Shown piece after piece: positions 6,569 to 63,542 of a DNA stretch of 64,000 nucleotides. Below the pieces are notes generated by a model, which was not told the origin of the DNA, ran no database searches, and was given only the letters and a program-made list of their open reading frames with translations. The DNA lies in IMG/VR virus record IMGVR_UViG_3300047362_000477, positions 35,492 through 99,491 of that record; one strand, 5' to 3'. Source of the DNA: a virus. Positions within the stretch are counted from its first letter, which is position 1. Each line of letters opens with the position of its first letter. The translations under genes were made by a program, and so were the position numbers.

Positions 6569-7829
6569 AATATTTTAACTCCTTAATAAATTTAAAGGTA
6601 TCTGTACCTCTTAAACGATCAAGGTCTTTTGTGTATCTCATAAACCATTGCCAATATTTCTCTTGATCTTTTTCATCTACACCTTCCAACTGTAATCCAT
6701 CTCTTATTGCATGAATGCCTGTTTGGTAGTGTATTTCTTGTGCATGATAGCTTCCTTTAGGCCAGATACTTCTATCTGGTATTTGTAGAAGTTTATCATA
6801 CATGATATATTTTAATTCTTCTGGCAAGTATGCTATGTTTAAGTAACTAGGATTAACTACAACATTACTCATACTAATACTTGCTCTATGTTCGTGTTTT
6901 TCTTTAAACCATTTCCATACTTTATCTAACCCAAATATATTAGTTGACATTACGGTTACTGCAAATACAACTTCAATATTATCATATGTATAAAATTTCT
7001 CTATATTATTTTCTAATTCTTTAAACGTGTATTTTCCACCACGTATAATACTATATAATTCATCTACTGCTTCTATACTAATAAGCAATTCTATATGCTT
7101 AAAGTGTTTAAATATCTCTTGAAAGTCTTCGTCAAATACTGTAGCATTAGTTGATATATCTAGCATAATATTCTTTGCTAGTCCTTGATCAATAAACCAT
7201 TGTAATATTGCTTTACAACTTTCATCATACAAAGGTTCGCCACCTCTTAATGCTACCCATTGTAAATTTCTAAAGTAGTCTGGGTCTGCAAACAAGTTAT
7301 CAAGAAACTGCATATCAGTTACTCCATGATATCCTATCTTTGCTTGTTCCCAATAATCTGGCTTTTCTTTGTTTAGCTTTTTTCCATCTTTGGTCCAACC
7401 TGTACTTACAAATGGATTACAATGTAAACAAGCTAGGTTACATTTATTGCTTATTGTAAAGTCTAAATAACGTATATCAGGTTTACTAGTAGCATTATTT
7501 TTAATTGATCCACGTTTTACATCTTCATCAAGTTTATCCCAAAAATACATTCTACGACTCTTACCACTTTGTTCTTTCTTTTGACAAGCTATACAAGCTG
7601 GCGGTATATTTCTACCTGCATGAGCTTTTCTTAATTCTACTGCTTCTTTACTGTTTAATATTTCTGGTAATGTCTGCTTTGTAATATTGCCAAATTTTCC
7701 TTGATAGATAATGTCTGGTAATACATTACCTCCCCACTTAATCGTTAAGGCGTTCCATGGTGCAAGGCACGTAGGAAACCTAGTATCTTTTAACATTGGA
7801 TTTACATACATATTATTAGCATACTCCAC
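6561..7829 (-). CDS. Radical SAM enzyme with degenerate N-terminal twitch domain
   Basis: 422 residues. The rSAM core motif is C130, C134 and C137 (KCNLACLHC), with LRGGEPL as the GGE motif. The N-terminal twitch-like region keeps C21 and the CIAC pair at 79-82, but the central CC dipeptide of its paralogs is missing; the corresponding stretch reads GGNVLPDI. The auxiliary cluster may therefore be lost, or ligated differently, in this member. It overlaps the upstream rSAM gene by 14 nt and the downstream PLP enzyme by 8 nt. Substrate unknown. Confidence 0.83.
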   Translation of the reverse strand: MEYANNMYVNPMLKDTRFPTCLAPWNALTIKWGGNVLPDIIYQGKFGNITKQTLPEILNSKEAVELRKAHAGRNIPPACIACQKKEQSGKSRRMYFWDKLDEDVKRGSIKNNATSKPDIRYLDFTISNKCNLACLHCNPFVSTGWTKDGKKLNKEKPDYWEQAKIGYHGVTDMQFLDNLFADPDYFRNLQWVALRGGEPLYDESCKAILQWFIDQGLAKNIMLDISTNATVFDEDFQEIFKHFKHIELLISIEAVDELYSIIRGGKYTFKELENNIEKFYTYDNIEVVFAVTVMSTNIFGLDKVWKWFKEKHEHRASISMSNVVVNPSYLNIAYLPEELKYIMYDKLLQIPDRSIWPKGSYHAQEIHYQTGIHAIRDGLQLEGVDEKDQEKYWQWFMRYTKDLDRLRGTDTFKFIKELKYYE

Positions 7830-8865
7830 ACGATCGTTTACATACTTCCCATTTGGCTTCTTTGACTACAGTATCAAGGTGATGGTTGTACCAATCGTTA
7901 CTTAATATTTCTTGTAAACTATATTTGAATAAGCTATTTTCAGTTCTTCTTTCAATAATAGTTTCATCGCAATTTGTTTTAAGAGATTGTTTGGATAAAT
8001 TTACTCCATATAAACTTACATGGCAACAAGGCCATACAGTTCCAAAAGGATCAATTTGTATCTCTCCTTCATTGTACCAAGGACATTTTGTTTCATTCAT
8101 AAATTTTGAGTCTTTTAATACTTCTGTTATATGCATCCAATAATCTGAATCAGGTTGGTCGCTTATTGTAAACTCGTCATTTTGTTCAAACCACCATTCT
8201 TGCTCTTTCATATTAGATTTTTTTATTACGTATTTTTCATCTTTATCATTTATTCTTATGTCACCTCCTTGGTGACTGCTTCTTGTTACAAATTGTCTGC
8301 ACTTTAAAGTTTCTGCCAAATTCTTTAGTTCTTCAACTTGATGCTGGTTATGTTCAAACAATGTCATTATTATTCTTCCACTACCACCAGCTTCATTAAA
8401 ACTTTTTATATTTTGTATAATTTTTTTAAAATCTGTTCTTCTTCTATATATGTGATGTGTATCTTCTAATCCATCTACTGCAAAATTAACCTGATGAGCA
8501 GGATACTTTCTTAATTGTTTAGCTAAATCAAACCAAAACTTTTCACCTCTCATACTACCATTTGTATGGATAGTTATAAATGTTTCTGGGTGATTCTCAA
8601 TCCATATTCTTACCATCTCAACTAAATTTGGATGCATCATAGGATCGCCCCAATTACCATTTAATGCTAACTGACCAATGTACCAACCTTTAGTATCTTT
8701 AGTACATATTCTTTTCCATAAATCTATATCAAAATGATTCAATGCTAATTCTGGTTCAGTATCTCCACCATCTTTGTTTCTAACACAAGCACCACATCTT
8801 GCATTACAATGACTGGTTACATCAAACTGAAATTTGTGTACCTTTGATTGCCATTTCATTCCCAT
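7816..8865 (-). CDS. Radical SAM enzyme with C-terminal SPASM-like domain
   Basis: 349 residues. Unlike its neighbours, the core sits at the N-terminus: C20, C24 and C27 in HCNARCGAC, then LNGNWGDP in the place of the GGE motif (the GNxGDP variant also seen in the genes at 55399, 60562 and 62270). The C-terminal cysteines (KCPW..., WPCC, and CKRSCGVC at the end) form a SPASM-like auxiliary-cluster module. This architecture is typical of peptide-modifying rSAM enzymes and of anaerobic sulfatase-maturase relatives, but no precursor peptide is obvious nearby. It overlaps the next rSAM gene by 14 nt. Confidence 0.82.
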   Translation of the reverse strand: MGMKWQSKVHKFQFDVTSHCNARCGACVRNKDGGDTEPELALNHFDIDLWKRICTKDTKGWYIGQLALNGNWGDPMMHPNLVEMVRIWIENHPETFITIHTNGSMRGEKFWFDLAKQLRKYPAHQVNFAVDGLEDTHHIYRRRTDFKKIIQNIKSFNEAGGSGRIIMTLFEHNQHQVEELKNLAETLKCRQFVTRSSHQGGDIRINDKDEKYVIKKSNMKEQEWWFEQNDEFTISDQPDSDYWMHITEVLKDSKFMNETKCPWYNEGEIQIDPFGTVWPCCHVSLYGVNLSKQSLKTNCDETIIERRTENSLFKYSLQEILSNDWYNHHLDTVVKEAKWEVCKRSCGVC

Positions 8866-54245: not shown

Positions 54246-54274
54246 ATTGTAACACACTATAAGTTCTTTGTCAA
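54246..54274 (-). promoter_or_regulatory. Sigma70-type promoter for the exonuclease gene
   Basis: TTGACA (54269-54274), 17-bp spacer, TACAAT (54246-54251), leftward, overlapping the 3' end of the upstream rSAM gene. Confidence 0.72.
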
Positions 54275-55399
54275 GCCTTCTATTGGTATTATTTTTTTAT
54301 AGAAGTCGGCAAACTCTGGAAATGCTTTTTCAAATGAGTTACCGTGATATCTATCATGTCTTTCAAGCATAAATTTTGTTGGGTATAGATATACATCTTT
54401 TGGTACAACATTTTTAAATGCTACTTGTACTTCTGGGTAATCTTTCCAATGCTCTATTAGTTTGTCTAGGTGTTCTTTTGGTAAACAATCAATACTCAAA
54501 CCATATGGGTTGGTAACAAAGTTATGTCTCATCTTATCAACATATTGAGCTAAGTCATCAAACACGTATCTAGCACCATATGCATTTGGCCAACTTATGG
54601 CTGTTCTTATTTTTGTACGTACTGACTTTGGATTAGATAATTTAAATTTATGAAACTCTTTTAAGTTAGAAAGAACTTTATTCCAAGTACCTTTGTGTCT
54701 CCAGTAATCATGTTGTTCACCTACACAATCTATACTAATTGATAATCCTACATCAGCAAATCCATCAATTGTTTCTAACACATTCTCACCGTGCCTGTTC
54801 AGTACACTTCCATTGGTTACCATGCTTATACTGATGTCTTTTTCTCTGCCTAATTGTTTAATCTTTTTACATATATCAAAGAAAGATTTAGTCATTAATG
54901 GCTCTCCGCCTGCAAATGATACGTGTTCTACAGTATGTAAATTATCTAAACATTGTTGTAATTGATGTACATTATTAAGTACTCCAGTCTTACCATGCTT
55001 ACCTTCTATTTTTGCATGAGTACTACTTAAATAACTACCACACATTTTGCAACTAAAATTACACAAGTTACTTTCTCTATAATCTAAATACCTTAATACA
55101 AATTTATCTTCTTGCCATGTATCATCTAAATAATCTTCATTGAATTCTTGCCTTAATGATTTAGAACCTTTTTGTTCTTGTGATACACAATTATTACACA
55201 TAGGAGGAAGTGTATCTGAATTCAACATAATCTTTTTAAACTTTTCCATTTCTGGATGAGAAAAGCGTTCTTCAAAAGACATATGTCTTTTTTCTTTATT
55301 AGGAATTAATATTTTATTTGCTTCACAACATACTTGTATGCCTCCACCTGTATGGTCATATGTTGTTACCCAAGGTGCTATACAAGACGGTCTATTCAT
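54257..55399 (-). CDS. Radical SAM enzyme with N-terminal twitch/SPASM-like domain
   Basis: 380 residues. The N-terminal module has C6 (CIAPW), CC at 24-25 and CNNC at 68-71. The core motif is C113, C117 and C120 (LCNFSCKMC), with FAGGEPLM as the GGE motif. It is the seventh N-twitch member and the only one outside the left-hand cluster. It overlaps the upstream SPASM-type rSAM gene by 1 nt, so two rSAM architectures are translationally coupled here, as at 6561-8865. Substrate unknown. Confidence 0.85.
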   Translation of the reverse strand: MNRPSCIAPWVTTYDHTGGGIQVCCEANKILIPNKEKRHMSFEERFSHPEMEKFKKIMLNSDTLPPMCNNCVSQEQKGSKSLRQEFNEDYLDDTWQEDKFVLRYLDYRESNLCNFSCKMCGSYLSSTHAKIEGKHGKTGVLNNVHQLQQCLDNLHTVEHVSFAGGEPLMTKSFFDICKKIKQLGREKDISISMVTNGSVLNRHGENVLETIDGFADVGLSISIDCVGEQHDYWRHKGTWNKVLSNLKEFHKFKLSNPKSVRTKIRTAISWPNAYGARYVFDDLAQYVDKMRHNFVTNPYGLSIDCLPKEHLDKLIEHWKDYPEVQVAFKNVVPKDVYLYPTKFMLERHDRYHGNSFEKAFPEFADFYKKIIPIEGLTKNL

Positions 55400-56493
55400 T
55401 ATTTAAATTGCTCCGCATATGGATCAAATTCTGTGCCACACTTCATTGAGCAAACTCCTAGTTTACCATTCTTAATACTATCTAGTTTCCAACTACGTTG
55501 TATATCATTCATAATGCCACTACCAAATACTCCTTCAATGCCGTGTATCTTTGCATTGATTCCATCCTTGCCACCAGCTCTATCTATAAAATCCCATATC
55601 TGTTCTACTTTAGGATCTTCATGCCACCATTTGTACATACGACCTGCAGTCCAACAACAAGGCATTATTAGTCCTTCAGCCGTGACAAAGATACTATTCT
55701 TATCTCCACTAGCAACTTTACATTTTATTTTTGCTTGGTTATAGTAGTTCATCATACCACCATAACTTTTCTCTATCTCTTTTTGTTTTAGTAGAGCAAG
55801 ATTTTGATGTTCTTTCTTTTGTGGCTTTGCTAAAACTGTTGTCTGTTCGCCTTTTCTATTACGTGCTTGATGCATTTCTTTTGGTTTACTTGCTTGAGTA
55901 ATGAACCTGCCTGTTTTCTTTTTGATAAACTTTTCAACGCCCCATTCTTTGGCTAACTGTTCTGCACGTTCTACATCACATTCGCTATGTTCAAATATTA
56001 AATAATCCCATCTAGCTCTACCACCTGCATTAATAAATGCTTTCATATTACGTTCAACGTGTTCCCACTTAACACCTTGTCTATATAAATGATTAGTTTC
56101 TTCTAGTCCATCCACACTAAAGATTACACAACCTTTTTTGCCTATAACTTTAGCTACTTCTGCCCACCATTCAGGTTTCTTAGCACCTGCATTAGTATTC
56201 ATACTTAACCACATATTAGGATTACAATCACGGAACCATTGAAATATTTCTAATGTATCTCTAGCACTAATAGGATCGCCCAAGTTACCACACATATACA
56301 TCGTGTGTAATTGAGATATAAAATCGTGTGGGAATATATCAATACAATGATCTAATGTAAGTTCTGCTTCTTTGCCTTTGATGTGTGGATTTACTTCTCC
56401 ACCATTAACATTACGATCACACATAGGGCATGATGCATTACACCGTTGGGTCACTTCGAGGTGAACTTCGTTTATGGATTTGTAATTGTACAT
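55399..56493 (-). CDS. Radical SAM enzyme with C-terminal SPASM-like domain
   Basis: 364 residues. Core cysteines C18, C22 and C25 (RCNASCPMC), with CGNLGDP as the GGE-position variant and FSVDGLEETNHLYR as a conserved core strand. The C-terminal module has KCKV..., IMPCCW and CSMKC, matching SPASM-type ligands. This is the same subtype as 7816-8865, 60562-61767 and the split pair at 62270-63207. An ATAAATA box lies at 56510-56516. Start ATG with GGATATC upstream is moderate. Confidence 0.82.
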   Translation of the reverse strand: MYNYKSINEVHLEVTQRCNASCPMCDRNVNGGEVNPHIKGKEAELTLDHCIDIFPHDFISQLHTMYMCGNLGDPISARDTLEIFQWFRDCNPNMWLSMNTNAGAKKPEWWAEVAKVIGKKGCVIFSVDGLEETNHLYRQGVKWEHVERNMKAFINAGGRARWDYLIFEHSECDVERAEQLAKEWGVEKFIKKKTGRFITQASKPKEMHQARNRKGEQTTVLAKPQKKEHQNLALLKQKEIEKSYGGMMNYYNQAKIKCKVASGDKNSIFVTAEGLIMPCCWTAGRMYKWWHEDPKVEQIWDFIDRAGGKDGINAKIHGIEGVFGSGIMNDIQRSWKLDSIKNGKLGVCSMKCGTEFDPYAEQFK

Positions 56494-61767: not shown

Positions 61768-62268
61768 TTATTGAGCTAGTGGATTATCTAATGCTCTTTG
61801 TAATCTTTTATTAAGTCTAGATTCAAGTTCTTTAAGTTTTAAATCAGTACTAGTACGTAAACTATCAGCTTTTTGTTCGTAATCAGTTAACAGTTGATCA
61901 CGTTTGTTTTCAAAACGTTGGTCAGCTAGATCGATAGCTACACGAACATCTTCTTCAGTTTTGTTTACATCATCTTCAACTTGATCAACAATACGTTCTA
62001 GTCTAACAATATCATCACGTAAACCATTCTTAATATCTTTAGAATAATCTAGTGCTTCGTCAAGTTTAGTGTTGACTACTGCTAGTTCTGCTTTAATTCC
62101 ACTTAGGTCTGGTGCTACATACTGTTCGATCTTATCTTTCATATTTGAGTAGTCTTTGTAAAATTCAAAACCTCCCCATAGAGCTCCACTTATCATACCT
62201 AGTAAAGGAATTATTAATAATAGTTTACTTCCGCCTACCTTTAGACCTTTGTATTCTATTTCAGCCAT
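61768..62268 (-). CDS. Membrane-anchored coiled-coil protein
   Basis: 166 residues from the ATG at 62268 (AAGGAGATAT upstream). A membrane segment (LLLIIPLLGMISGALWGGF, about residues 15-33) is followed by a long coiled coil of charged heptads to the C-terminus. The form resembles small phage membrane/tail-associated proteins, but no family is certain. It ends head to head against the rightward rSAM gene with no gap. Confidence 0.62.
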   Translation of the reverse strand: MAEIEYKGLKVGGSKLLLIIPLLGMISGALWGGFEFYKDYSNMKDKIEQYVAPDLSGIKAELAVVNTKLDEALDYSKDIKNGLRDDIVRLERIVDQVEDDVNKTEEDVRVAIDLADQRFENKRDQLLTDYEQKADSLRTSTDLKLKELESRLNKRLQRALDNPLAQ

Positions 62269-62269
62269 G

Positions 62270-62923
62270 TTATATCTCCTTATTATTTCCGTCATGTACT
62301 TCTTCGGGAAGCCATTTTGCGGAAGGTCTTAATGGATCATCTTTAGAAGTCCATCTTCCACTTAATCTAAGTACAAGATTAATTCCATTGTCTTTTGCTA
62401 GTTTCCTAGCTTCATCTATCTGGTGTTCGTTAAAACTAAATGGGATCCATTGCCAATTAACTTGTTTACCTTTTTTAACACCTAAACACATTGCATCAAA
62501 TGACTGTTGCCAATTAATGCCAACTCTATATTTGTGAGCTGTATCTTCTAGTCCATCAATTCCGAACCAAATTTTGTTATATTTATTTCCATTTGGTTTT
62601 TTATTGTATTCTTTGTATGAATCATAAAACTTTTCCCACCAAGATACTTTCTTTCCTGATCCATTAGTATGAATTGCAAACGGGTAATTGGTTAAGTTTA
62701 ACCATCTTACAAATTCAATTAAGTTTGGATGATATATAGGATCACCCAAGTTACCAGACATAACAACATCACTTGGTCTTGTTTTAAGTACTAGTTCTTT
62801 TGCATGGTTAATATTTAAATCGTCAATAGTATACGTGCCTCTACGAATAGTTCTTGGGCATTTAGGGCATTCAAGTAGACACCTTTTACTCATTTCTAAA
62901 TGTAGTGACATTCCTGTATTCAT
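62270..62923 (-). CDS. Radical SAM core, stand-alone half of a split rSAM/SPASM enzyme
   Basis: 217 residues: only the radical SAM core, without a SPASM tail. Core cysteines are C15, C19 and C22 (RCLLECPKC). SGNLGDPIYHP is the GGE-position variant and GIDGLEDTAHKYR a conserved core segment shared with 7816 and 55399 products. The C-terminus stops where those proteins continue into SPASM. The preceding gene (62920-63207) encodes just such a SPASM module and is joined by an ATGA overlap, so the two parts are probably made together as a heterodimer, in inverted order relative to the fused versions. Confidence 0.8.
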   Translation of the reverse strand: MNTGMSLHLEMSKRCLLECPKCPRTIRRGTYTIDDLNINHAKELVLKTRPSDVVMSGNLGDPIYHPNLIEFVRWLNLTNYPFAIHTNGSGKKVSWWEKFYDSYKEYNKKPNGNKYNKIWFGIDGLEDTAHKYRVGINWQQSFDAMCLGVKKGKQVNWQWIPFSFNEHQIDEARKLAKDNGINLVLRLSGRWTSKDDPLRPSAKWLPEEVHDGNNKEI

Positions 62924-63207
62924 TTTTTAACCTTTACCCAGTTTTCTATTGGATTGTCAACTGATGTAAATGGTTTATTACATTGTTCATAACAAGCCTT
63001 CTGTGCCCAATTTTTAGTATTTTCTTTTACGTTCTTTACGAATTCTTTTAATTGTACTTCTAGGATATCTTCTATACTATTGTAATTTAAATTCCATTTT
63101 TTATCTTGATTTATCTTTCCGTACTCACCAATCCAACAACAAGGTCTTACTTGACTACTTGACGTAACATAAAGTTTTCCTCCATTTTCGCACTTTGGGT
63201 AAATCAT
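62920..63207 (-). CDS. Stand-alone SPASM-like auxiliary-cluster protein
   Basis: 95 residues. The Cys pattern YPKCENGG, then RPCCWIG, then CYEQC mirrors the C-terminal SPASM-like module of the fused enzyme at 55399-56493 (KCKV, MPCCW, CSMKC) and includes SIEDILE-type helix sequence in between. There is no rSAM CxxxCxxC motif. It overlaps the rSAM core gene by 4 nt (ATGA). The pair probably reconstitutes an rSAM/SPASM enzyme; the auxiliary [4Fe-4S] cluster would sit here. Confidence 0.75.
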   Translation of the reverse strand: MIYPKCENGGKLYVTSSSQVRPCCWIGEYGKINQDKKWNLNYNSIEDILEVQLKEFVKNVKENTKNWAQKACYEQCNKPFTSVDNPIENWVKVKK

Positions 63208-63542
63208 TTGTTTGTTCTTTCTTTAAAATTAAATTGTAATCCAAGTACAACTCCAGCTCTATTATTTTCTAATGCTGGCATTACAAAAAAGTTTTTATAT
63301 CTTAATCTTGTCATTGGTACAACATCATAATCATATCCAGTAACAACTCCAAGATCTAATACTAAATCTTCACTTATATTTAACTTATATGCTCCTACTA
63401 AACTTGTTCTATCTAAACTATTATAGTATGCGCCGGTAATAGTATTATCTGTTTCACACATAGCATAAGGATGTACTTGATTATAGTCATTTACTAATCC
63501 TAAATGCATAGACAAAGCCAAACCTAACACTAAACAATTCAT
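63204..63542 (-). CDS. Secreted or outer-membrane beta-barrel-like protein
   Basis: 112 residues. A short hydrophobic N-terminus (CLVLGLALSMHLGLV) may be a signal peptide. The body has alternating beta-type strands (ITGAYYNSLDRTSLVGAY, LVLDLGVVTGYDY, FFVMPALE, VVLGLQFNF) ending with an aromatic, as in small outer-membrane barrels. It overlaps the SPASM gene by ATGA. Function unknown. Confidence 0.55.
   Translation of the reverse strand: MNCLVLGLALSMHLGLVNDYNQVHPYAMCETDNTITGAYYNSLDRTSLVGAYKLNISEDLVLDLGVVTGYDYDVVPMTRLRYKNFFVMPALENNRAGVVLGLQFNFKERTNK

Follow-up and report, generated by a model that had tools for sequence, protein, structure and literature searches.

A radical SAM core gene preceded by a gene for a twitch-like module in a marine phage: a putative two-subunit enzyme and its rearranged relatives

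The DNA analysed here (the window, 64,000 nucleotides) comes from a linear virus record of 99.5 kb, of which it covers bases 35,492-99,491. Two adjacent genes on its minus strand were studied: the small subunit gene (62920..63207), predicted to encode a 95-aa stand-alone auxiliary Fe-S (twitch-like) module, and the core subunit gene (62270..62923), encoding a 217-aa radical SAM core without a C-terminal module. The small gene lies 5′ of the core gene, so that the auxiliary-cluster gene comes before the catalytic one, and the two share a 4-nt ATGA stop/start overlap (62920..62923, minus strand), as the original prediction had described. Both belong to a longer series of overlapping genes on the same strand. 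The upstream member (63204..63542), which overlaps the small gene, is short and PagP-like, matching phrog_3600 (E 5e-11) in its C-terminal part only, and the downstream member (61768..62271) encodes a coiled-coil protein with a probable membrane segment. The same flanking genes were found in a second contig (L001), where both genes are 100% identical, and in a third (L096), where they are 75-84% identical.

The core protein carries the CX3CX2C motif of the SAM-cleaving cluster (C15, C19 and C22, in CLLECPKC; 62858..62881, minus strand) within a radical SAM domain, which places it in the radical SAM superfamily. It matched Pfam Radical_SAM (PF04055) with an E-value of 2.9e-4, under the gathering score, and NCBIfam radical SAM models down to 5.6e-7. 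The model of the homologous core of L121 showed six strand/helix units and matched radical SAM enzymes in the PDB. The core terminates about twenty residues past the last well conserved stretch (DPLRPS), with no Cys module, and it scored 21.7 bits against N_Twi_rSAM (NF033640; cut-off 170), of which it is not a member.

The small protein contains five cysteines (C6, C23, C24, C72 and C76) in the motifs PKC, RPCCW and CYEQC. In its AlphaFold model (mean pLDDT 76), Cys6 (codon at 63190..63192, minus strand) precedes a beta-hairpin formed by residues 12-14 and 19-22, Cys23-Cys24 follow directly after it (P22-C23-C24-W25; 63133..63144, minus strand), and the CX3C motif (C72-x3-C76; 62980..62994, minus strand) comes after a long helix (45-62). 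This topology fits the order Cys, beta-hairpin, Cys, helix, two Cys that has been described for the twitch of SkfB/BtrN (PMC6231123) and that we used to define a twitch, a truncated SPASM domain; the motif glycine is Ser in the window. A full SPASM domain, defined by the two-cluster, seven-Cys motif CX9-15GX4C-gap-CX2CX5CX3C-gap-C, was ruled out because the protein has five cysteines and lacks CX2CX5CX3C, so that it is better described as a one-cluster twitch-like module. We infer that it binds one auxiliary Fe-S cluster, with C6, C23, C72 and C76 as likely ligands.

Searched alone, the window's small protein matched no family significantly in Pfam, NCBIfam or PHROGs, and Foldseek of its model against the PDB gave no meaningful match; among PDB sequences, the small-family profile reached only the part of YydG around its auxiliary cluster, below threshold (E 0.25). 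At the family level, Pfam SPASM was matched by 31 of 40 aligned stand-alone members (best E 3.5e-7). The small-family HMM also matched the C-terminus of a fused radical SAM protein of the same genome (60562..61767, plus strand) at residues 309-397 (E 5e-7), a stretch within which the fused protein itself matches Pfam SPASM (317-390, E 1.8e-5), and a second fused protein (55399..56493, minus strand) at 252-357 (E 6e-6). In hhalign comparisons, the small-first clade aligned to C-fused modules with E 3e-16 and to N-twitch modules with E 2e-7, values that are pairwise and not database-calibrated, the C-fused set having itself been collected with the small-family HMM. The expectation of a SPASM-like module nearer to the C-terminal than to the N-twitch type was therefore borne out as to homology, but not as to a full SPASM domain.

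Both proteins just named, together with a third (7816..8865, minus strand), have the core first and the Cys module last, as had been read from the sequence, and an N-twitch enzyme is encoded alongside (54257..55399, minus strand; 235.8 bits against NF033640, cut-off 170). Across the whole record (G000), 19 ORFs carry CX3CX2C radical SAM motifs, at 3299-62923 of the window and upstream of it, and many of them have N-terminal twitch-like modules. Other partners for the small protein are accordingly possible.

Scans of IMG/VR yielded more than 100 related loci, from which 91 distinct cores were classified: 53 split with the core first, 15 C-fused, 9 split with the small gene first and 2 N-fused, with 10 scored as core-only and 2 ambiguous by rule because they are located in tandem arrays. 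The core-only class includes truncated or distant cores as well as three (L030, L022 and L036) with a small gene in the neighbourhood; between the core and the small gene of L036 (3986-6454) stands a 540-aa gene resembling a B12-binding-type radical SAM protein. In two loci scored as split (L029 and L055), the ORF after the core is a longer one of the fused type, and the trees treat both loci as core-only. A further scan with the N-fused pair added two distinct N-fused sequences, bringing these to four. The small-first order, which the original prediction had suggested looking for in related phages, was found in 13 independent contigs representing 9 distinct sequence types, and 60 of 62 split pairs overlap. 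These results showed that the split state is the usual state of this family in marine phages and no local oddity. Tandem and alternating arrays occur in L026, L054, L067 and L162, and these genomes with several split cores hold several different small genes. The array of L162 (2619-6912) reads small-core-small-core-[QueC-like]-small-core-small, an order from which the pairing of small to core genes cannot be read. Leaving aside two likely phage contigs, the closest cellular homologues found are C-fused proteins encoded in MAGs of Bdellovibrionia and Bdellovibrionales (L152-L154).

Both genes of the pair are intact, conserved and under purifying selection, with dN/dS of about 0.05-0.21 for each (Nei-Gojobori, pairs with dS <1). 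Of 57 pairs, all retain CX3CX2C and 56 retain the module cysteines. The distance matrices of core and small proteins were strongly correlated (Mantel r 0.90), at a level that none of 2000 permutations reached. In the core tree, the eight small-first pairs and three core-first ones (L018, L019 and L021) form one clade (99/82), with the core-first three as sister to the window's group (94/80), and the small-module tree gave the same grouping (98/83). This agreement shows that both partners are orthologous and that the order alone differs; with a core-first sub-lineage of orthologous partners inside the small-first clade, it was an already split pair that changed order, in one direction or the other. 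The change was a swap of two genes already separate, rather than the permutation of a fused gene that had been proposed originally. AU tests were compatible with the small-first order having arisen once (p 0.20 and 0.27), and repeated independent swaps are therefore not claimed. Two C-fused proteins (L060 and L085) inside the core-first clade suggest re-fusion, and the own-genome pair in L011/L003, which lies in a separate clade, suggests an independent split.

Relatives carry this module fused to the N-terminus or to the C-terminus of the core, and with all four arrangements represented, it appears to behave as a movable part. The linker between module and core matches is about 35-50 residues in N-fused proteins and 5-15 in several C-fused ones; a longer N-fused linker would be expected if a module attached at the opposite end has to be placed at the same site. 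The grouping of the N-fused proteins with the small-first clade is weakly supported (95/34), and the model of an N-fused relative matched SkfB (Foldseek, E 4e-7). When small and core rows were aligned together to the N-fused protein, the small proteins were misplaced; they were therefore left out in building the N-fused model, in which the module has low confidence. Against NF033640 (cut-off 170), L121 scored 25.7 bits and L159 24.4, and L160 gave no match. The suggestion that the split pair is a clue to the origin of N-twitch enzymes thus gains from the existence and grouping of N-fused relatives, but these fall far under the family cut-off, and the link is suggestive only. We tentatively propose, at a little short of even odds, that in marine phages this module became a free subunit that was split off, swapped in order and re-fused at either end, and that N-terminal twitch enzymes arise via small-first split pairs.

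Taken together, the gene structure, conservation, co-inheritance and module homology are best read as two genes encoding two subunits of one radical SAM/twitch enzyme, as had been anticipated, with a probability that we put at roughly three in four; complex formation, cluster ligation and a redox role are predicted. Alternatively, the small protein might be a free-standing Fe-S protein, an electron carrier or cluster donor that serves several radical SAM enzymes and is no dedicated subunit. The 19 radical SAM ORFs of the genome would offer it clients, and in L036 the small gene stands one gene away from its core. Close congruence of the core and small trees, the presence of the same module fused in both orders to the same core type, and the several different small genes wherever several split cores occur (L026, L054, L067 and L162) nevertheless make such a shared role rather unlikely.

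Accounts in which the two genes are not really separate working units fare worse. A deletion between two tandem fused genes could have joined the 3′ part of the first to the 5′ part of the second, with neither remaining functional, and the tandem and alternating arrays make it plausible that the order originated by duplication followed by loss. It is very improbable that the genes are such remnants, since both are under purifying selection, the ligands are fully conserved and the order has persisted between cores that share as little as ~47-50% identity. We give equally little credence to a programmed frameshift that would join both frames into a single protein in practice. The genes overlap, and an A-rich stretch stands right before the TGA of the window's small gene, but that stretch is absent in the relative L096, the frame relation varies among relatives (gap modulo 3 of 1 or 2, about equally), and L036 has its 540-aa gene in between. 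Finally, about 1 kb separates the site from the end of the record, and an assembly error or chimera might be suspected; with the same order in 13 independent contigs and matching flanks in L001 and L096, there is next to no chance that the order arose in this way.

In the proposed two-subunit enzyme, the core subunit would bind the SAM-cleaving [4Fe-4S] cluster and generate the 5′-deoxyadenosyl radical, and the small subunit, bearing the single auxiliary cluster, would dock at the site occupied by the C-terminal module in fused relatives, where it may take part in substrate binding or electron acceptance. The product would be a heterodimer whose two chains carry the SAM cluster and the auxiliary cluster, respectively, and the gene overlap might allow the two subunits to be made in step. 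Neighbours of related loci include genes for QueC-like PP-loop ATPases, glycosyltransferase-like and methyltransferase-like proteins, nitroreductase and TauD; the glycosyltransferase-, methyltransferase- and QueC-like ones suggest modification of a surface glycan or small molecule. PP-loop ATPases recur beside split pairs (L017:7436-8068, L026:5008-5817 and L162:4673-5548), those of L017 and L162 reaching the whole-protein Pfam QueC cut-off.

A second auxiliary module family (WxCxAG...C...CxC) accompanies another radical SAM core in the same phages, where 4 C-fused, 3 N-fused and 5 stand-alone distinct types were counted (examples are L011:9144-9545, minus strand; L017:5813-6751; and L023:1292-2338); the stand-alone module of this family in the window's own genome has 133 aa. 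As this family shows the same arrangements, the behaviour may be general. In the solved radical SAM examples considered here, the auxiliary clusters are carried by a SPASM/twitch module at the C-terminus of the enzyme's own chain. A tiny separate module in all four linear arrangements would make it possible to test the role of the auxiliary cluster by adding or withholding the subunit, and the family would also record how domain order changes and put an identity on a widespread unannotated phage gene.

Radical SAM genes are known from T4-like marine phages, one of which has 12 (PMC5332604), and radical SAM cassettes are contained in the host-recognition cluster of pelagimyophages (PMC7029224); stand-alone twitch subunits were not found in this literature. 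PMC11528403 was dropped as an analogue, the "split" there being hyperfine splitting. The lipoyl synthase LipS1/LipS2 (PMC9585515) resembles the present pair in that two proteins jointly replace a single radical SAM enzyme, but each of the two is a complete radical SAM protein that has auxiliary clusters of its own, and there is no split between core and module. Closer in architecture are the C-terminal-twitch enzymes BtrN, MoaA and SkfB (PMC6231123, PMC9012708), which have a CX3CX2C core, one auxiliary cluster, as is expected here, and the same succession of a Cys before the beta-hairpin, a Cys after it and two past the helix; unlike in these enzymes, the module here is a separate protein whose gene precedes the core gene. 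The N_Twi_rSAM enzymes (NF033640), abundant in the same phage, also place the module before the core, and the modules are distantly similar, but they are single chains with a different core subfamily. The split core and small pair of the cultured Pelagibacter phage Mosig EXVC030M (MT647606), genes 84/85 (Mosig_00084/Mosig_00085), belongs to the same family and differs from the window's pair in having the core first; in Mosig, the sole cultured phage found with it, the small gene is annotated as hypothetical.
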